Shown here: positions 6,403 to 62,443 of the stretch, piece by piece
Position numbering within the stretch: position 1 is the first letter of the stretch
Layout of the letters: the number at the start of each line of letters is the position of its first letter
Assembly: GCF_002355635.1 (NCBI RefSeq)
Contig: NZ_AP017558.1
Coordinates: forward strand, 1,612,001-1,676,000
DNA length: 64,000 bases
Direction of reading: 5' to 3'
From: Halopenitus persicus
Lineage (GTDB): Archaea; Halobacteriota; Halobacteria; Halobacteriales; Haloferacaceae
Notes under the pieces: generated by a model
The model's database searches: none
Told to the model about the DNA's origin: nothing
What the model saw: the letters and a program-made list of their open reading frames with translations, nothing else
Program-made: the position numbers and the translations under genes

Positions 6403-8253
6403 ATGACCGATGCCGACCCGACCGTGACCCGCCTGTTCGGCGGTCCGGGCAGCGGGAAGACGACCGCGCTGCTCGACCGCGTCGACGAGCTCCTGCAGGA
6501 CGGCAGCGTCGACGTTCGCGACGTGCTGGTGGTCTCGTACACCCGTGCGGCCGCCGCCGAGGTCCGCGACCGGCTCGCCGAACGGCTCGACGTCTCCCCG
6601 CGGTCCCTCCAGGGGAACGTCTGCACGATGCACGCGAAGGCCTACGAGCTGCTCAACCTCTCGCGGGGCGACGTCGTCGGCGAGGACGACAAATCCGACT
6701 TCTGTGAGGGGTATGGGATCGAGTTCGAGGACGAGTACGGCGGCGCCAACCGCCGGACCGCGCGATCGACGACGATCGGCAACAAGATCATCGCGACCTC
6801 CCAGTGGCTCCAGCGGACCAACCGCGACGTCGCCGACTGGTACGACGTCCCCTTCCAGTGGGACGTCGAGGAGGTCCGGCTCCCGCCCGAAATCGACCCG
6901 AACGCCCAGGAGGGCAACAAGTACACGCCCACGTGGTCGGCCGACGACGACCGGATCGACGTTCCCGAGACGATCCGCGCCTGGCGGGCCTACAAGGGCG
7001 ACCACGAGCTCGTCGGCTTCGCGGACATGCTCGAGCGCGTCGCGCAGCGCTCGCTCGTCCCGAACGTCGACTACCTCGTGATCGACGAGTTCCAGGACAT
7101 CACGACCCTCCAGTACGACGTCTTCGAGGAGTGGCTGCCCCACGTGGAGACGGCGCTCATCGCCGGCGACGACGACCAGGTCGTCTACGCCTGGCAGGGC
7201 GCCGACCCCGACCTCCTGCTCGACACCGACGTCGACGAGGACGTCGTCCTTCCCAACTCCTACCGGCTTCCCTCCCGGATCCTCAACGTCGTCAACGCGG
7301 AGATCCGCCACATCGACAAGCGCCAGGAGAAGGACCTCCGGCCGCGCAAGGAGGGCGGCGTCGTCGAGGCCATCGAGAGCCCCTCGATGCTCGAACTGGT
7401 TCGCAACGTCCGGTACACGATCGACGACGACGACGGCAGCGTGATGTGTCTGTTCCGGGCGCGCTACCAGATGTTCGACTTCATCGACGAGTTCATCGAC
7501 CACGGCATCCCGTTCAAGCTCCTCACCGACGGCCGGATGTGGACCGACCGGCTCACCGACTACGTTCGGGCGGTCGAGAAGTACAACGACGACGAGCCGG
7601 TCTCGGGCCTTGAGGCCCGCCGCCTGGCGGACATGCTCCAGGAGTCGACGTTCGGCACGAACGAGCGCGACGACTTCTACGACTACCTCGACGACCGCGA
7701 GGAGGCGGCCGACGCCGACGACATCACGCAGCTAGAGATCGCGCCGGAGACGATCGCCGAGTACGCGCCGTTTATGCCCGACCGAGCCAGCGCCAGCGAC
7801 ATGGTCCGAAAGGTGACGAGCTTCCAGCGGAACTCGGTCGAGGCCTACTTCGACGGCGACTACCAGGACGTCGCCCCGAACCGCATCCGGATCGGGACGA
7901 TCCACTCCGCGAAGGGCCGGGAGGCCGACCACGTCTTCGTTTCGACGGACCTCACCGAGAAGGTGGTCGAACAGCTCGCCGCCTCCGTCGAGGACCCGAC
8001 CGACGTCGAGGGCGTCGAGGAGTTCACGAAATCAACCAGCCCGGTACCGGTCCTCACCGACAACGAGCGCCGCGTCTTCTACGTGGGAATGTCCCGCGCC
8101 CGCGAGCGGCTCGTTGTCCTCGAGAACCTGATCACCGGCGCGCCGACGCTCCCGGTGAGCGTCCTGCTGTTCAACGAACTCCGGGAGGAGCCCCCCGACG
8201 AGCTGATCGAGGAGGTCCAGGCGGAGCTGGCGGCGCCGGAACCCGAGCCGTGA
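6403..8253 (+). CDS. UvrD/Rep-family superfamily 1A DNA helicase
   Basis: A 616-residue SF1A helicase. Motif I is GGPGSGKTTA at residues 13-22; the Ia region follows with VVSYTRAAAAEVRDR. Motif II is VIDEFQD near residue 226, motif III GDDDQVVYAWQG near 255, a motif V-like GTIHSAKGREADHVF near 498, and motif VI YVGMSRARERL near 560. It is shorter than bacterial UvrD (about 720), mainly in the 2B region. Such enzymes unwind DNA 3' to 5' in repair or replication restart. The next gene starts inside its stop codon (GTGA overlap), so the two are translationally coupled. Confidence 0.93.
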   Translation: MTDADPTVTRLFGGPGSGKTTALLDRVDELLQDGSVDVRDVLVVSYTRAAAAEVRDRLAERLDVSPRSLQGNVCTMHAKAYELLNLSRGDVVGEDDKSDFCEGYGIEFEDEYGGANRRTARSTTIGNKIIATSQWLQRTNRDVADWYDVPFQWDVEEVRLPPEIDPNAQEGNKYTPTWSADDDRIDVPETIRAWRAYKGDHELVGFADMLERVAQRSLVPNVDYLVIDEFQDITTLQYDVFEEWLPHVETALIAGDDDQVVYAWQGADPDLLLDTDVDEDVVLPNSYRLPSRILNVVNAEIRHIDKRQEKDLRPRKEGGVVEAIESPSMLELVRNVRYTIDDDDGSVMCLFRARYQMFDFIDEFIDHGIPFKLLTDGRMWTDRLTDYVRAVEKYNDDEPVSGLEARRLADMLQESTFGTNERDDFYDYLDDREEAADADDITQLEIAPETIAEYAPFMPDRASASDMVRKVTSFQRNSVEAYFDGDYQDVAPNRIRIGTIHSAKGREADHVFVSTDLTEKVVEQLAASVEDPTDVEGVEEFTKSTSPVPVLTDNERRVFYVGMSRARERLVVLENLITGAPTLPVSVLLFNELREEPPDELIEEVQAELAAPEPEP

Positions 8254-18710: not shown

Positions 18711-18764
18711 CCGCCGGAGAGTGCTCGCGGAGAACGAATTCGGAGACGCGCACCGTCCGCCGGT

Positions 18765-18874
18765 GGGATGCACATCGTCCGCTGATGGGATGCACATCGT
18801 CCGCCGATGGGATGCACATCGTCCGCCGATGGGATGCACATCGTCCGCCGATGGGATGCACATCGTCCGCCGAC
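18765..18874. repeat. 22-bp tandem repeat, five copies, between converging genes
   Basis: Copies start at 18765, 18787, 18809, 18831 and 18853; each begins GGGATGCACATCGTCCGC. The 22-bp unit is not a multiple of three, fitting its non-coding position between the stop codons of two convergent genes. It could act in transcription termination or be a neutral minisatellite. Confidence 0.9.
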
Positions 18875-34402: not shown

Positions 34403-34504
34403 TATGGACGGACGTGGACGGACGTGGACGGACGTGGACGGGCGCGGACGGACGTGGACGGGCGCGGACGGACGTGGATGGGCGCGGACGGACGTGGACG
34501 GACC
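34403..34504. repeat. 6/12-bp tandem repeat between divergent genes
   Basis: About 100 bp of GGACGT/GGACGG/GCGCGG hexamers, forming 12-bp and higher-order 24-bp periods (GGACGTGGACGG, GCGCGGACGGACGTGG). It fills the space between mptD and the gene at 34568 and lies directly upstream of the mptD TATA box, so length changes could alter that promoter's context. Confidence 0.85.
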
Positions 34505-53160: not shown

Positions 53161-56100
53161 ATGAGTGGGGACACGGTCGAAACGGGTGCGACGGAGTTCC
53201 CCGATCTCCCCGGTAGCGAGGGTACGGACGACGACTCCGACCCGCCAGCGGCCATCCTCGGGGAGTACACGTGGAAGGAGTTCATGCGCGAACACGGGTA
53301 CGGAGACGAGGTCGAGGCCGTGTACCGGGACGTCGATCCCGAGGCGAACGGGGACACGTTCTTCCCGTTCTCGAGCACCGACGTCCGTCGTGTTCCGAAC
53401 GCCGACGACTGGGATCGCGTCGCGTTCACCCCGGCTGCGTACCTCGGTTGCCGGCCATCCGCGTTCGAGGACCGGCTCCGCCGGGCCACGAGCGCGAGCG
53501 CACGGTTCGATCGCGCGTTCGAGAACTGGATCGTGCGGACCCGGGTCGCGAAGGGCGAGTACACGTGGGAGCACTTCAAGTGGGAGTACTACTACGACGA
53601 CGGCCGACCCCCACGGGACGGCGGGGAGATCGAACCGTTCGCCCCGTCCGAGCATCTGGGGTTCCATCCCGACGACATCGGATCGGTGCTGGCTGCAGGC
53701 GCTGAAAACGCCCGGGAGTTGCTCGAGATCGAGGACCGCCGGACGGTGAACGTTACTCCCGAACTGGACGAGGACGAGTTCTTCTCGACGAACGAGGGAC
53801 TGACGACGCTCACGAACCGCTACGATCTGGAGAAGGCCGTCCCGATGGAGAAAAAGCGGCACTTCGTCGAGGAGGACCGATACTGGGTCGACAAGCCGTA
53901 TGCGTTCGTCGTCATCTTCCACTCGGTCACGGAAAACGAGAAGAAGTACTACGTGATCGAACCGTACCTCAACGAGATCGAGCAGGACCTCGTCGAGTTC
54001 TTCTCCGGCAAGCTCCGGACGAGCATCAAGTACTCCGACGAGGACGTCGTCGTCAGGGGAACCGAGGAGGAGCGCGCGGACCTGCTCGAGGAGGAGACCA
54101 GGTGGTTGATCGACCGGTACAACCTGCGTAGCCCGGCCGCGAGCGACGACGAGTCAACCGACGGGCCGCTGCGCGAGACCCTGACACGGTTCGACGGGGA
54201 GGCCGTCCGCGACCGACTCAGGGGACTCGTGGACTCGCTCGGATCGTCGTCCGAGGAGCCCGACGACGATTCGACGGATGAACCCACGGAACTGGAGGGG
54301 ATCTCGGCCCGTCCGGAACCCGCGGTGCTCGCGGAGGACTCGGGATGGCTCACCGAGTACCAGGTCCAGAAGGTGCTCCGGCTGATCCGGCGCGACTTCA
54401 TCGGGTACGAGCGGATCGACCCGATCAAACACGACATCAACGTGGAGGACATCTCCTGTGACGGCTACAACTTCCCGGTCTTCGTCTACCACACCGATTA
54501 CGAGAACCTGATCACGAACATCAAGCACGGGGAAGACCGGCTCGACAGCTTCGTCATCAAGATCGCCCAGCGGTCCGGGAAGGGGATCTCGAAGCGTCAG
54601 CCGCAGGTGGACGCCACCCTGCCGGACGGCTCCCGCGCCCAACTCACGCTCGGCGAGGAGGTCTCCGACCACGGGACGAACTACACCATCCGGCAGTTCA
54701 AGGACGTCCCGTTCACGCCGGTCGACCTCATCAACTGGAAGACGTTCTCGCTCGACGAGATGGCCTTCCTGTGGCTCTGCATCGAGAGCAACAAGTCGCT
54801 GATATTTGCGGGTGGCACCGCCTCCGGGAAGACGACGAGCCTGAACGCGGTCTCGCTGTTCATCCCCTCGAACTCGAAGATCGTCTCGATCGAGGACACC
54901 CGCGAGGTCGAGCTGCCCCAGCGCAACTGGATCGCCAGCGTGACTCGGCCGTCGTTCAGCCAGGACAACGTCGGCGACATCGACGAGTTCGACCTCCTGG
55001 AGGCGGGGCTCCGGCAGCGCCCCGACTACATCGTGATGGGTGAGGTGCGGGGAGAGGAGGGCCGAACCCTCTTTCAGGTGATGTCGACCGGACACACGAC
55101 GTACACCACCTTCCACGCCGACACGGTCGACGAGGTGTTGAAGCGGTTCACGACGGACCCGATCAACGTCTCGAAGACGCTATTCACGGCGCTGGACCTG
55201 ATCTCGGTTCAGACCCAGACCCGGGTCCAGGGCCGGAAGGTCCGGCGCAACAAGACGATCACGGAGATCAACTCCTACGACGCTGAGAACGACGAGGTGA
55301 GCGTCCAGGACGTGTACCAGTGGCAGCCGGAGGAGGACGAGTTCCTCCAGCACGGAAACTCGAAGAAGCTCCAGGAGATCGCCTTCGACCGCGGCTGGAC
55401 CCCCGAGCAGCTCAACGCGGAACGGTTCAAGCGCCGCACCATCCTGGCGTACCTCATCACGAACGGGCTGAACACGTACACCGAGGTCGCCGCCACGCTG
55501 CAGGCGTTCATCAACGATCCCGAGACGATCCTGACGATGATCGCCAACGAACGGCTGGAGGAGAGTCTGGCGGACCTCCGGGAGATGGAGTCGGTGCTCA
55601 TCGACGTCGACCCCGTGAAGGAAGCGCTGGTCCCGCGGCCCGAGCCCGGATCGGACGTCCTCGAGGAGGCGGAACGCATCCTCGAGGTTGCGGAGGATCG
55701 GATCTTCAAGGAGTACCGTGGAAAGCAGGCCAGCAGCCTGGCCGACGCGCTCTCCCGAACGAAACACGCGAACGACGCCACCGCGTCGCCGGAACGTGAC
55801 CCACAGATGCTGATGGCGGTCGACGACGCCGACGATCAACTCCTGGCCGACGGAGCGACGTCGGACGTCGAGATGCCGAAACCCCCAGAGACCGTCGATG
55901 CTGGGGAGACGACACGGGGACCGACGCCGGACGCACGCGTCGACGATGCGGACGTCTCATCGAACGAATACGATGACGACGAGCCGACCAGCGAAGCGAT
56001 GGACGAGCCGACTAGCGAAGCGATGGACGAGCCGACTAGCGAAGCGATGGACGAGCCGACTAGCGAAGCGATGGACGAGCCGACTAGCGAAGCGATGGAC

Positions 56101-56292
56101 GAGCCGACTAGCGAAGCGATGGACGAGCCGACTAGCGAAGCGATGGACGAGCCGACTAGCGAAGCGATGGACGAGCCGACTAGCGAAGCGATGGACGAGC
56201 CGACTAGCGAAGCGATGGACGAGCCGACCAGCGAAGCGATGGACGAGCCGACCAGCGGAGCGACCGACGACGACACCCAGGAGCGTGAATGA
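53161..56292 (+). CDS. pilB: PilB-type pilus assembly ATPase with repeat tail
   Basis: A 1043-residue type II/IV secretion ATPase. The N-terminal region has two related modules (EYTWKEFMREHGYGDE near 38 and EYTWEHFKWEYYYDDG near 135, each followed by PF...LG..P). The ATPase core has Walker A FAGGTASGKTTSLNAVS (about 547), Asp box SIEDTREVELPQ, Walker B YIVMGEVRGEEG and His box TGHTTYTTFHADT. The last ~100 residues are twelve EPTSEAMD-type units. It assembles type IV pili with the PilC-type protein; its stop overlaps the next ATG. Confidence 0.93.
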   Translation: MSGDTVETGATEFPDLPGSEGTDDDSDPPAAILGEYTWKEFMREHGYGDEVEAVYRDVDPEANGDTFFPFSSTDVRRVPNADDWDRVAFTPAAYLGCRPSAFEDRLRRATSASARFDRAFENWIVRTRVAKGEYTWEHFKWEYYYDDGRPPRDGGEIEPFAPSEHLGFHPDDIGSVLAAGAENARELLEIEDRRTVNVTPELDEDEFFSTNEGLTTLTNRYDLEKAVPMEKKRHFVEEDRYWVDKPYAFVVIFHSVTENEKKYYVIEPYLNEIEQDLVEFFSGKLRTSIKYSDEDVVVRGTEEERADLLEEETRWLIDRYNLRSPAASDDESTDGPLRETLTRFDGEAVRDRLRGLVDSLGSSSEEPDDDSTDEPTELEGISARPEPAVLAEDSGWLTEYQVQKVLRLIRRDFIGYERIDPIKHDINVEDISCDGYNFPVFVYHTDYENLITNIKHGEDRLDSFVIKIAQRSGKGISKRQPQVDATLPDGSRAQLTLGEEVSDHGTNYTIRQFKDVPFTPVDLINWKTFSLDEMAFLWLCIESNKSLIFAGGTASGKTTSLNAVSLFIPSNSKIVSIEDTREVELPQRNWIASVTRPSFSQDNVGDIDEFDLLEAGLRQRPDYIVMGEVRGEEGRTLFQVMSTGHTTYTTFHADTVDEVLKRFTTDPINVSKTLFTALDLISVQTQTRVQGRKVRRNKTITEINSYDAENDEVSVQDVYQWQPEEDEFLQHGNSKKLQEIAFDRGWTPEQLNAERFKRRTILAYLITNGLNTYTEVAATLQAFINDPETILTMIANERLEESLADLREMESVLIDVDPVKEALVPRPEPGSDVLEEAERILEVAEDRIFKEYRGKQASSLADALSRTKHANDATASPERDPQMLMAVDDADDQLLADGATSDVEMPKPPETVDAGETTRGPTPDARVDDADVSSNEYDDDEPTSEAMDEPTSEAMDEPTSEAMDEPTSEAMDEPTSEAMDEPTSEAMDEPTSEAMDEPTSEAMDEPTSEAMDEPTSEAMDEPTSEAMDEPTSGATDDDTQERE
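55981..56268. repeat. 24-bp x 12 tandem repeat at the 3' end of pilB
   Basis: Eleven copies encode exactly EPTSEAMD and a twelfth reads EPTSGATD. The middle copies are identical in DNA (GAGCCGACTAGCGAAGCGAT plus GGAC); the first copy and the last two have ACC in place of ACT. The uniformity points to recent expansion and predicts copy-number variation. Confidence 0.95.
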
Positions 56293-56837
56293 TCATGGAA
56301 TACGCATACGCGACGTGTATACTGAACGAAACGGGCGAAGAGATCAACGAAGAGAACCTGACCGCGGTCCTCGAGGCCGCTGGCTGTTCCGTCATCGAGT
56401 CCCGCGTAAAGGCGATCGTCGCCGCGCTGGAGGACGTCGACGTCAGTAAGGTCACTGCCGTCGACGTGGAGGACGCCGGTAACGCGTCACCGGCGGATCT
56501 GGAGATTCCGTCGACGGCGGACGAGGACGTGGCGGCGGACGAGGCCGATTCCGGGACGGCACCCGGGAGCGACCCGGCGATGGAGGATCCGGCGATGGAG
56601 GATCCGGCGATGGAGGATCCGGCGATGGAAGACCCGGCGATGGGAGCCGAGACGGAGCTCGCGTCGGGTGAACGGACCGATGAAGCGCACGAGGCCGACT
56701 CGGAAGCGACTGCCGGCGACGACGATCGAACGATCGACGCGGACGACGAGACGACGAACGCCGACCCTCCGGTGGAGGCGACGGACGCCGAACTCCCGGA
56801 GGAGGAGACGAGCGCCGGCCCTTCCGAAGAGAGGTAG
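56289..56837 (+). CDS. ribosomal stalk P1-like domain protein in pilus operon
   Basis: A 182-residue protein. Residues 3-58 (MEYAYATCILNETGEEINEE, NLTAVLEAAGCSVIESRVKA, IVAALEDVDVSKV) closely follow the N-terminal dimerisation domain of archaeal ribosomal protein P1 (L12). The tail differs: acidic, with PAMED repeated four times (15-bp unit, 56575-56640), and it lacks the GLGALFG-like C-terminus with which P1 binds translation factors. The ATG at 56289 overlaps the pilB stop; ATG 56295 matches the P1 start. It sits between pilB and pilC, 3 bp before pilC, so it is part of the operon. Confidence 0.8.
   Translation: MIMEYAYATCILNETGEEINEENLTAVLEAAGCSVIESRVKAIVAALEDVDVSKVTAVDVEDAGNASPADLEIPSTADEDVAADEADSGTAPGSDPAMEDPAMEDPAMEDPAMEDPAMGAETELASGERTDEAHEADSEATAGDDDRTIDADDETTNADPPVEATDAELPEEETSAGPSEER
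56575..56640. repeat. 15-bp tandem repeat (PAMED)
   Basis: Four units of CCGGCGATGGAGGAT (the last with GAAGAC) encode PAMED, followed by PAMGAE. Confidence 0.9.
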
Positions 56838-56840
56838 TTC

Positions 56841-58877
56841 ATGAGTACAGACCCGGTGGCCGTTCACGGATGGCGACGTCGACGCTACATCGACACCCTC
56901 ACGGACGCGTTCAGACCCGTCTACGTCAGGCTGTTCGACGAGAACGATTCCTTCGTCATCAACGTCGAGGACAAGCTCGCCGAGGCTCGTATGGACAAGA
57001 CTGTGGAGGTGTACCTCTCGCGAGCGCTCGCGTTCGGAACGATCTGTGGAGCCCTGCTCTGGCTGCTGGGCGTCACCGTGGCCTTCGGAGTGATCGAGAC
57101 CGGCATCGTGGAGGTCGGGGCGCTTACCAGCCTCCGGATCCCGAACCCGACGCTTCTGGCGCTGATCGAGATCGCCCGGGTCCCGTTTTTGATCGTGACC
57201 TCGGGGTTCCTGCTCGGCTCGATCGGCTTCGCGGCCGTCTTCGGCAGCTACGTCGCGCTCCCGTACAGTCGGGCCGGATCCCGCAAACGTGAGATCAACA
57301 CGCTGCTGCCCGACGCCGTCTCGTTTATGTATGCACTGTCGCTCGGGGGGATGAGCCAGATCGAGATCATCGAAACGATGGCCGAATCGGCGGACACCTA
57401 CGGGGAAGTGTCGATGGAGTTTCGAACGATCCTCCAGGAGACCCGGTACTTCGATACGGACTACCGGACGGCCATCCAGCGATGCGCAGTCCGGACTCCG
57501 AGTGCCGAACTGAGCCAGTTCTTCACCGATATGCTGTCGATCATCGACAGCGGCGGGAGCATGACGGAGTTCCTCGAGGACAAGAAGGACATTCACTTCC
57601 GCCACGCCAAGGAGGACCAGCAACGCACCCTCGAGACGCTCGAGCTGTTCAGCGAGATGTACATCACGATCTCGCTGTTCCCCCTGCTTCTGATCGTCAT
57701 TCTCGTGATCCTGGACATGATCGGCGGGAGCCAGGAGCTGCTCCTCTACGGGACCGTGTACGTGCTGATACCGGGACTCGGACTGGCGTTCCTGGTCATC
57801 GTCTCGACGGTCCGGACGGACGAGCACGGGAACGGCTACCTCGAACTGGAGGACGACGTCGGGCGGTTCGATTTCGGCCAGGAGTCGAACGCGCTGGACC
57901 TCGGGTTGATCGGACAGTTCACGGGAACGTACTACATCTTCGACCGGATCGCCAGCCGGGAAGGCACCAAAGTGGCCATGGAGATGTTCAAGAACCCCCA
58001 CGTCTTCCTGCGCGACAATCCGATATATACGCTCGCGATCACCGTTCCGGGGTCGATTGCGTTCGTGGCCGTGACGGTCCTGACCGGATCGGCTCCGGTC
58101 ACGTGGGCCGGCGTCATCGACTATCCGATCTGGTCGACGGTCGTCTACGTGTACGTCCCGTTGTTCGCCATCTGTATCCCCTTCACGGTCTTCTGGGAGT
58201 GGAACGTTCGACGACGGCGGGCCGTCCTGGATGGGCTCTCCGAGAACCTCCGGAAGCTGGCGAGCGCAAACGCGACGGGGCTGACGCTGCTCGAATCGAT
58301 CAAGGTGGTCGCGGACACGACGCCCGGCAAGCTGGGGGAGGAGTTCCGGACGATCCACTCGAAGAGCAACTACGGGATGCACCTCAAGGAGTCGCTGGTC
58401 GTGTTCAACAACAAGTACCACATCCCGCGGCTCGCCAGGACGGTGAAGCTCGTCAGCAAGGCACAGGAGATCTCGAGCCAGATCTCCACGGTCCTGTCGA
58501 CGGCCGCAGTGGCGACCGAGACCCAGGAGGACATCGAGCGTGACCGCAAGCAGCGTGCGATGATGCAGGTCGCGATCATCGTCCTGACGTACCTGACGCT
58601 GCTCGGCGTGATCGCGCTGTTGAAAGCCCAGTTCGTCGACGTCATGGCGGATGTGACCGCGCAGACCGAAGGCGGAGCCGGGACCGGCGGACGGAACTTC
58701 GGCGTCTCCATGGACCTGGGGCTGCTGTCGCTGCTGTTCTTCCACGCCGTGACCCTGCAGGCGATCCTCTCGGGGCTCGTCTGCGGGTACATCCGCGACG
58801 CGAACGTGGCGTCGGGCGTGAAGTACGTGGTGTTCCTCTCGACCGCCGCACTCGGCGTCTGGCTGGTGGTTGCATGA
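56841..58877 (+). CDS. pilC: PilC-type pilus assembly membrane protein (T2SSF domains)
   Basis: A 678-residue membrane protein with two type II secretion F-like domains. Each has the pattern of a cytoplasmic helical bundle and following membrane helices: LPDAVSFMYALSLGGMSQIE near 155 and LSENLRKLASANATGLTLLE near 465. About eight membrane segments are visible. It is the platform that PilB drives to add pilin subunits. The next gene overlaps its stop (ATGA). Confidence 0.92.
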   Translation: MSTDPVAVHGWRRRRYIDTLTDAFRPVYVRLFDENDSFVINVEDKLAEARMDKTVEVYLSRALAFGTICGALLWLLGVTVAFGVIETGIVEVGALTSLRIPNPTLLALIEIARVPFLIVTSGFLLGSIGFAAVFGSYVALPYSRAGSRKREINTLLPDAVSFMYALSLGGMSQIEIIETMAESADTYGEVSMEFRTILQETRYFDTDYRTAIQRCAVRTPSAELSQFFTDMLSIIDSGGSMTEFLEDKKDIHFRHAKEDQQRTLETLELFSEMYITISLFPLLLIVILVILDMIGGSQELLLYGTVYVLIPGLGLAFLVIVSTVRTDEHGNGYLELEDDVGRFDFGQESNALDLGLIGQFTGTYYIFDRIASREGTKVAMEMFKNPHVFLRDNPIYTLAITVPGSIAFVAVTVLTGSAPVTWAGVIDYPIWSTVVYVYVPLFAICIPFTVFWEWNVRRRRAVLDGLSENLRKLASANATGLTLLESIKVVADTTPGKLGEEFRTIHSKSNYGMHLKESLVVFNNKYHIPRLARTVKLVSKAQEISSQISTVLSTAAVATETQEDIERDRKQRAMMQVAIIVLTYLTLLGVIALLKAQFVDVMADVTAQTEGGAGTGGRNFGVSMDLGLLSLLFFHAVTLQAILSGLVCGYIRDANVASGVKYVVFLSTAALGVWLVVA

Positions 58878-59521
58878 TCCGACCGCCGGACCAGTCGGAA
58901 GACGGTAGCCGGACGTCAGCCGACGACACGGTCGACACACCTGGCGACGACACGGTCGGAACACCTGGCGACGACACGGTCGACACACCTGGCGACGACA
59001 CGGTCGGAACGTTCGCCGACGACACGCGCGGACAGACGCTCCCCGACTTCGCCGCCGGAATCGCCATCTTCCTCATCACGGTGACGTTCGTCTCCGTATT
59101 CGTCCCACAACTGATCCTGCCGTTCGAGGACCAGGAGCAGCCCGTCGTGGCCGATCGGATCACGAACGGGCTGGGGAACGATGCGCTCACGGAGCCGGGG
59201 ACGCCGTCGGAGCTGAACGAATCGGCGACGCGAGCGTTCTTCGACCTCGCTGAGGACGAGGCGCTCGACCGGCTCGGCGTTCGCCCGTGGTACTCGGTCA
59301 ACGTGACGATACGCGACGTACCCAGTCACGACCCGGACTCGGCCGTGCTCTGTGCCGTCGACGACCCCGACAGCGACGAGTGGATCGGCGCGTGTGAATC
59401 CGGTGCCGATCGGTTCGCGCTCGGCCCACCGGCGTCGACGGACGACCGGTCGGTCTCGACGGCCCGGCGAGCGCTCTTCGCCGGCGACAGCGGCGTCGTT
59501 CTCGAAGTGAGGGTCTGGTAA
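58874..59521 (+). CDS. pseudopilin-like protein (DUF7287-like)
   Basis: A 215-residue protein: an acidic N-terminal stretch with four DDTV-(D/G)-TPG repeats (24-bp unit, DNA ~58921-59012), then TRGQTLPDFAAGIAIFLITV, a prepilin-like junction with a membrane helix, and an extracellular domain with cysteines (VLCAVDD, IGACESG) that could form a disulfide. I recall the family as DUF7287, found after PilC in haloarchaeal pilus loci. Probably a minor pilin or assembly factor. Confidence 0.78.
   Translation: MIRPPDQSEDGSRTSADDTVDTPGDDTVGTPGDDTVDTPGDDTVGTFADDTRGQTLPDFAAGIAIFLITVTFVSVFVPQLILPFEDQEQPVVADRITNGLGNDALTEPGTPSELNESATRAFFDLAEDEALDRLGVRPWYSVNVTIRDVPSHDPDSAVLCAVDDPDSDEWIGACESGADRFALGPPASTDDRSVSTARRALFAGDSGVVLEVRVW
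58921..59012. repeat. 24-bp tandem repeat in the DUF7287-like gene
   Basis: About four units encode DDTVDTPG or DDTVGTPG alternately, suggesting a 48-bp higher-order duplication. Confidence 0.85.
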
Positions 59522-61124: not shown

Positions 61125-61590
61125 CCGCCGTTCGACGACCGACCGCGGCGTCTCGACGGTCGTGAGCTACGCGCTGATCCTGGGGATCGTGGCCCTGCTC
61201 CTGGTCACGCTGATCCTGGCGTTCGCTCCGCTGGTGACGAACCAGCAGACGAGCGCCGTCCACTCGACGCTTGCGGTCGTGGGCAACGACCTCGCCGGCG
61301 ACGTCGAGAGCGTCGACAGGCTCGCGGTCACGACCGGGTCGAACGGGACGGTCGTCCATCGCACGCGGCTCCCGGAGCGCATCGGGGGGAGTCCCTACCG
61401 GATAGATATCGACCAGCCGGGCGGCGAGACGTACTACGAGCTCACGCTCCGGAGTCCCGACCACGACCTCGACGTGACGGTCACGGTCAGGACGCGAACC
61501 GAGATCGACGTCGCCGAGATCGGGACGCTCGATGGGGGACACCTCGAGATCGCCTCGGGGGAGAACGGGCTGGTGATTCGGAATGCGTGA
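61117..61590 (+). CDS. pseudopilin-like protein (DUF7266-like)
   Basis: A 157-residue protein with the start MRDRRSTTDRGVSTVVSYAL and a membrane helix (LILGIVALLLVTLILAFAPL), very like an archaeal prepilin. The head is beta-rich. The ATG at 61117 overlaps the preceding gene by 8 bp; a GTG three codons earlier is possible. From memory the family is DUF7266. Confidence 0.78.
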   Translation: MRDRRSTTDRGVSTVVSYALILGIVALLLVTLILAFAPLVTNQQTSAVHSTLAVVGNDLAGDVESVDRLAVTTGSNGTVVHRTRLPERIGGSPYRIDIDQPGGETYYELTLRSPDHDLDVTVTVRTRTEIDVAEIGTLDGGHLEIASGENGLVIRNA

Positions 61591-62443
61591 CCGCGACCGC
61601 CAGCGGTGCGCGAACGACCGGAGCGAGCACATCTGCGATCGAAGCGGGCACACTTGCGACCGGGGCGAACAGACCCACGGCCGGGGCGAACAGACCCACG
61701 GCCGGGGCGAACGTACCCATAACCGCGGGCAGAGTGAACTGCTCGGGTTCGCGCTGATCTTCGGGGTCGTCGTCCTCGCCATCGTTCTCATCGGGACGAC
61801 CGGCTTCGTCGGGCTCGACGATGCCCGGGACTTCCAGCGGACGACGAACGCCGAGCAGGCGTTGACCGTCCTCGCGGAGAACATCGACGACGTGACGCGT
61901 CGCGGCGCACCGAGTAGGACCACCGAGATCAGGCTCGCCGACGCCTCGCTGTCGCTCGGGGAGCCGGAACGGATCACCGTCACGGTCGGTGACTCGACGC
62001 CGGAGAACACGACTGACGTCGAGATGCGGCCGATCGTGTACGACTCCGGCTCCGGAACGACCATCGCGTACACCAGCGGCGCGCTGATTCGTCAGGACGG
62101 CGAGCATTCGGTGATGATCCGGGAGCCGAACGTGGTGCTGACGGACGAGCTGGTACTCCTCCCCGTCGTCGCCACGTCGCCGAACGATGCCGGTCCCGTC
62201 GGCGGCACGTCCGCCGTCGACGTCCGGACGCGGAGCGCGGGAACCGAGGTGGTCGCCGCGGACGACGGCGCGACCACCGTCGACGTCGAGGTGACCTCGC
62301 CGCGCGTCGAGTCGTGGTACCGGTTCCTCGATGGCGAAACGGACGCCGACTGCGAGGCTCCCGTCGACGAGACGGTAACCTGCACGATCGAAACCCAGCG
62401 CGTCTACGTGACGGTCGAGCACGTCGACGTGCGGTTCCGGTGA
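61583..62443 (+). CDS. pseudopilin-like protein (DUF7289-like)
   Basis: A 286-residue protein. A charged leader with HTCDRGEQTHGRGEQTHGRG (21-bp repeat, about three copies, DNA 61660-61725) precedes QSELLGFALIFGVVVLAIVL, the pilin-like helix. The ectodomain is beta-rich and has two cysteines near the C-terminus (ADCEAP, VTCTIE). It ends the operon that begins at pilB. From memory the family is DUF7289. The unusually long, His/Cys-containing leader is probably due to the repeat. Confidence 0.78.
   Translation: MRDRDRQRCANDRSEHICDRSGHTCDRGEQTHGRGEQTHGRGERTHNRGQSELLGFALIFGVVVLAIVLIGTTGFVGLDDARDFQRTTNAEQALTVLAENIDDVTRRGAPSRTTEIRLADASLSLGEPERITVTVGDSTPENTTDVEMRPIVYDSGSGTTIAYTSGALIRQDGEHSVMIREPNVVLTDELVLLPVVATSPNDAGPVGGTSAVDVRTRSAGTEVVAADDGATTVDVEVTSPRVESWYRFLDGETDADCEAPVDETVTCTIETQRVYVTVEHVDVRFR
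61660..61725. repeat. 21-bp tandem repeat (GEQTHGR)
   Basis: About three units of CGGGGCGAACAGACCCACGG plus C encode GEQTHGR ahead of the pilin-like helix. Confidence 0.85.

Follow-up and report, generated by a model that had tools for sequence, protein, structure and literature searches.

A 24-bp tandem array of twelve units lengthens the acidic tail of a pilus ATPase in Halopenitus persicus, and it is probably a young, lineage-specific expansion, grown by near-neutral in-frame slippage in a permissive tail that tolerates it. The gene that follows, P1L, resembles in sequence a ribosome stalk protein that has been copied and put to a new use. Array and genes lie on the forward strand of the window, by which we mean the whole 64,000-nt stretch analysed (NZ_AP017558.1, positions 1,612,001 to 1,676,000; the genome is coded G000).

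The tandem array and its host gene

The host gene (positions 53161–56292) encodes a PilB-like protein of 1043 residues, in which a T2SSE/VirB11-type ATPase is accompanied by an N-terminal extension and a long acidic C-terminal tail. The T2SSE domain (PF00437) matches residues 477–696 of 1043 at 5.1e-29, with 101.5 bits against a cut-off of 24.9, and the motif GGTASGKTT is invariant across all 30 aligned PilB sequences, including that of a Haloferax marinum relative (L215). Extra N- and C-terminal parts flank the ATPase as in the PilB4 type, and by this domain layout the protein fits an accessory, PilB4-like pilus ATPase. The extra domains of PilB4 (HVO_1160 locus) have been called Halobacteria-specific (Makarova 2016, PMC4858521). 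In contrast to the PilB4-type ATPase and locus as presented in the main text of that paper, where the words 'ribosomal' and 'L12' do not occur, the C-terminal part here contains a twelve-unit repeat, and a P1-like gene sits between pilB and pilC. A second large PilB, 60% identical to the window PilB, is encoded elsewhere in the genome (L067). In the PilB tree, this second protein groups with the PilBs of the two other genomes of the same genus; the window PilB falls with those of G003 and G399, the latter from another family.

The array spans positions 55978–56265 and is composed of twelve head-to-tail units, 288 bp in total, in frame in the PilB tail. Specifically, units 1–11 encode DEPTSEAM and unit 12 encodes DEPTSGAT. 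Units 2–10 are identical in DNA (ACT-AGC), units 1 and 11 are a single synonymous base (ACC) apart from them, and unit 12, which also has ACC, is three bases apart from unit 11. The TRF score of the array is 544, with 98% matches, versus best scores of 45–63 per run in 20 first-order Markov simulations of the window, and no array scores higher in the 464 kb made up of the window and a 400-kb sample of the same genome. The preliminary description had placed the array at 55981–56268, which is the same repeat in another register, and its twelve units are confirmed.

A pattern search of the own genome with the unit, allowing up to three mismatches, returned exactly these 12 sites, and the reversed-unit control returned none. 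In addition, the DEPTSEAM unit is absent from 255 of the 257 loci fetched, the remaining two both covering the window pilB. A dispersed repeat or mobile element is ruled out, since the unit is confined to the array in the own genome and in the 257 fetched loci.

Following the PRP motif, the tail of the window PilB has 219 residues, or 123 without the array; the tails of its closest relatives have 117 (G003) and 115 (G399), and both are without the array. Nine identical units, together with the absence of the array from the two closest orthologues, bear out the earlier proposal of a recent expansion, and the 35 acidic and zero basic residues of the array agree with the acidic tail that had been described on the pilus ATPase. 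The distribution of CTAG is of interest in this respect. In the 400-kb sample of G000, this tetranucleotide occurs 74 times versus 263 expected from a Markov estimate based on trinucleotide counts; nine sites nevertheless lie inside the 288-bp array, at 24-bp spacing, and 16 in the rest of the window. An expansion too young for avoidance to act would explain the nine sites despite the genome-wide avoidance.

We propose that the array would have started in the tail of the accessory PilB4-like ATPase, from a pair of imperfect 24-bp units lying side by side. Amplification, by replication slippage or unequal recombination, would have spread one copy with a silent C-to-T change into the nine identical central units; a block of nine identical units, with differences confined to the edges, is consistent with growth from the middle. 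With a unit of eight codons and a long, acidic tail of low conservation, no step would have damaged the conserved motor core or the start of the following gene. The outcome would be a presumably disordered tail that is nearly doubled in length and has gained 35 acidic residues. The AlphaFold model of PilB, based on 30 sequences, is poor everywhere (mean pLDDT 48), with the conserved ATPase low too; it neither supports nor opposes tail disorder and was left unused for the tail.

Phase-variable simple-sequence contingency loci carry tandem repeats able to change copy number. Unlike in those loci, the unit here keeps the frame and the array is located at the 3′ end of the gene, immediately ahead of P1L. 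Copy-number change is frame-neutral, as had been anticipated, given that 24 bp is eight codons; the suggestion of phase variation fails for on/off switching by frameshift, as any number of 24-bp units leaves the frame unchanged. The in-frame coding satellites of Halobacteria likewise have short units, with a length that is a multiple of three, inside genes (PMC6749651); the portion of this general survey considered here does not discuss pilB tails.

Repeats in PilB tails and in the pilus operon

To place the array in context, we delimited 102 distinct PilB tails from 121 loci, of which ten were dropped for a missing anchor or end; the other nine left out were six copies of loci already counted and three loci (L023, L194 and L215) that failed the text pattern. 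All 102 tails are more acidic than basic, with medians of 32% Asp+Glu and 3% Lys+Arg versus 19% and 10% in the cores, and this conserved acidic composition indicates that the tail is probably useful. At a score of ≥40, the tails contain 152 arrays in 89 kb, found in 71 of 102 PilBs (31 of 102 tails have none), and the cores contain 31 arrays in 153 kb, found in 28 of 102. Codon shuffles (five each) gave 41 arrays for tails and 13 for cores at this score. At ≥80, the tails have 40 arrays versus 0.4 in shuffles, and the cores one versus 0.0. Low complexity accounts for part of the tail arrays, but not for the strong ones. Strong tail arrays occur in several genera, e.g., a 24-bp unit in 10.3 copies in L191 and a 24-bp unit in 5.4 copies in L003, and the repeat units are unlike between genomes, which suggests separate origins. 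The PilB tail is a site where repeats grow and are tolerated.

Some PilB tails (L004, L008, L014, L018, L067, L088 and others) have a C-terminal tip of the W-G-F-G type, or W-x-F-G-like, in an acidic context, which recalls the tips of stalk proteins. W-x-F-G-like tips are present in 23 of 97 tails of PilBs without linked P1L and in 0 of 5 P1L-linked ones, with no significant difference in frequency (Fisher p = 0.59).

Repeats are also frequent in the rest of the operon. One small gene, P1L, separates pilB from pilC (positions 56841–58877), the product of which matches T2SSF (PF00482) in two stretches. The next gene encodes a DUF7287 pilin-like protein (positions 58874–59521) with a 24/48-bp array (58919–59026) of TPGDDTV-type repeats before its hydrophobic segment, and a DUF7289 pilin-like protein (positions 61583–62443) has a 21-bp array (61660–61719), with encoded repeats before its hydrophobic segment. 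The downstream families above their cut-offs are T2SSF, DUF7287, DUF7288, DUF7266 and DUF7289; a match to DUF7261 is below its cut-off. Over its 9.3 kb, the operon contains seven TRF arrays with a score of ≥50, every period being divisible by three. The five strongest are located in the PilB tail, in the P1L tail (two) and in the pre-hydrophobic segments of the two pilin-like proteins. The P1L-tail arrays comprise 4.7 copies of a 15-bp unit, with DPAME units (56574–56643), and a weak array with 2.8 copies of a 27-bp unit and 72% matches (56748–56822). No array of this score is present in the orthologous operon of G003 (8.5 kb) or of G399 (6.6 kb), and the other eight P1L-linked loci have 0–2 each over 6–10 kb; G000 is the exception among P1L-linked loci in array number.

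The own genus is rich in repeats in the samples taken. Its three genomes have 38, 55 and 39 arrays per 100 kb, and six other genomes have 15, 35, 12, 19, 26 and 9, as counted in 400 kb for G000 and 100 kb for each other genome (~3–13% of each genome, with the G001 sample drawn from two contigs), a density that may depend on G+C. G014, at 35 per 100 kb, is nearly as repeat-rich and lies outside the genus. Of the 151 arrays in the G000 sample, 107 have a period that is a multiple of three. We read the operon arrays as slippage that survives where the protein tolerates a change in length.

Two further arrays in the window, at positions 18754–18873 and 34406–34501, have periods (22 and 20 bp) that are not multiples of three. 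An exact 92-bp tandem duplication is present in the G072 pilB (L256, positions 7992–8174), which is split into two frames; the reading of this gene contains an ambiguous residue, and the duplication may be an assembly error.

Alternatively, in-frame changes in copy number could be under selection as a contingency device, altering how far the PilB tail reaches or how much charge it carries, and through this pilus assembly or adhesion. We regard such length tuning as unlikely: strong arrays do recur in PilB tails of several genera, and acidity is kept in every tail, but arrays abound in the sampled parts of the genome and also in other operon segments under loose constraint, nearly a third of the tails have no array at a score of ≥40, and the two closest orthologues are without any. 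As the strongest array in 464 kb, this one may still be favoured rather than neutral.

Each DEPTSEAM might also be a putative binding site, for P1L or for another partner, with the repeats adding avidity. The amino-acid sequence is unchanged in 11 of 12 units, and the P1L-tail repeat shares a 15-base stretch with the array unit, identical at 13 of 15 positions. A multivalent motif is nonetheless distinctly improbable, given that none of the other fetched loci contains the unit, that the identity of its copies is explained by youth, that the DNA resemblance to the P1L repeat is weak, and that P1L occurs in ten other genomes without a DEPTSEAM unit. An assembly artefact affecting the copy number or the entire array is the least credible explanation, for although identical tandem units are hard to assemble, and the G072 duplication may be a case of this, the genome assembly consists of two contigs and is 99.5% complete, and the array, at 288 bp with diverged edge units, is within long-read span.

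A stalk-like gene between pilB and pilC

P1L (positions 56289–56837) encodes an archaeal ribosomal stalk P1 N-terminal domain of ~55 residues and a variable acidic tail. Its first ATG overlaps the pilB stop, and a start reading MEY is located at 56295. The first 70 residues match TIGR03685 at 1.2e-19 and PDB 3a1y at 3.5e-14. The AlphaFold model of P1L has a confident helical domain in approximately the first 50 residues and low confidence beyond, and its best Foldseek match is again 3a1y (E 1.6e-4, TMt 0.84), with 57% identity in the structural alignment. The ribo_P1_arch cut-off of 100 bits is missed by P1L, both as the whole protein (55.5 bits) and as the N-domain (70.6 bits), and by five other members (63–75 bits); the true P1 of G000 reaches 128 bits. 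This true P1 is encoded elsewhere (L068), ends in GLGELFG, and follows an ORF resembling P0, which we named by eye.

The archaeal stalk protein aP1 forms dimers that are held by aP0 in a heptameric complex, and elongation factor 1A binds to its C-terminal end, as reportedly do other translation factors (PMC6791870). P1L shares with aP1 (TIGR03685, 3a1y) the N-terminal helical domain and an acidic C-terminal part, but differs from it in having no GLGxLFG tip, in not being beside P0, and in its location in a pilus operon. Specifically, the GLGx(L/M)FG tip is found in 0 of 10 distinct P1L sequences and in all 50 of the remaining distinct P1 sequences from the fetched loci. The P1L of G062 has only 62 residues and consists of the domain without a tail.

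Pairwise comparison of the P1L N-domain gave dN and dS of 0/0.23, 0.086/0.32, 0.089/0.28, 0.25/0.86, 0.29/0.92 and 0.30/2.3 in six pairs, which are rough values, as three pairs share members and the domain has 55 codons. By these values, P1L appears to be under purifying selection.

Distribution and possible role of P1L

Six of the 170 family genomes searched yield two or more P1-like matches (E up to 1e-6), and in five of these the extra copy is located between pilB and pilC. In the sixth (G181), the extra P1-like match is something else. A stop-to-stop frame of that genome (L079, positions 1123–2274) has two P1-like domains, and the frame adjoining it resembles a portion of a protein kinase. 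We also sampled 392 genomes evenly across the order, some of them shared with the family set, and 25 of the 392 have more than one match (E up to 1e-8). The weaker copy is between pilB and pilC in nine of them; in the other 16 (L077, L235 and L237–L251), it is an additional full-length P1 that has the normal tip and lies away from pilB. Combined, P1L is present in at least 11 genomes from three families, according to the tool's family codes, and the gene order is pilB-P1L-pilC in 11 of 11. These counts are lower bounds, as more diverged copies would be missed. G072 and G074 share one P1L N-domain sequence. Of 80 named PilB loci, part of which have short flanks, three contain P1L: SHRA6, Halomicroarcula rubra F13 and Halomicroarcula sp. 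SYNS111, records that duplicate genomes already in the sampled sets.

The 11 P1L-linked copies are clustered in the PilB tree, with three changes versus a shuffled mean of 10.3. Well-supported branches force at least three P1L changes, so that this topology requires P1L to have been lost or to have been gained more than once, and a one-clade constraint gave a p-AU of 0.16. This tree left out L005 and has two badly filled rows on very long branches (L213 and L025). In the P1-domain tree, which has only 56 columns, one P1L clade is not rejected (p-AU 0.82), which is not proof of it. Neither tree rejects or proves a single origin of P1L.

We recognised no published account of a P1-like gene in a pilus locus in the literature searched, which was mostly outside subscription journals. 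By analogy with aP1, P1L could form a dimer that binds a helix of PilB or PilC, or could have kept its binding to P0 and draw ribosomes to the base of the pilus; our guess is a scaffold at the motor. We therefore put forward, as a tentative and rather doubtful possibility, that a duplicated stalk protein was recruited to an accessory pilus motor, keeping the P1 dimerising domain and losing the factor-binding tip, and that it serves as a flexible scaffold with the acidic tail of PilB or as a tether to P0 of ribosomes making pilins, the tails of both partners having grown by repeats in this genome. The link between the PilB array and P1L consists only of their neighbourhood and a weak likeness of the repeat units. 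A common origin of the two repeats was rejected as too weak, with 6 of 500 shuffled-unit pairs as good as 13 of 15.

The array is a clear case of acidic tails growing in frame, repeatedly and at the same place in one protein family, and it is a caution against taking every coding repeat for a switch. We consider P1L the more important and more surprising of the two findings, and it deserves follow-up. If the proposed recruitment is true, P1L would be an unusual case of a part of the translation apparatus transferred to a surface machine, and a candidate for a so far missing component of haloarchaeal pili.
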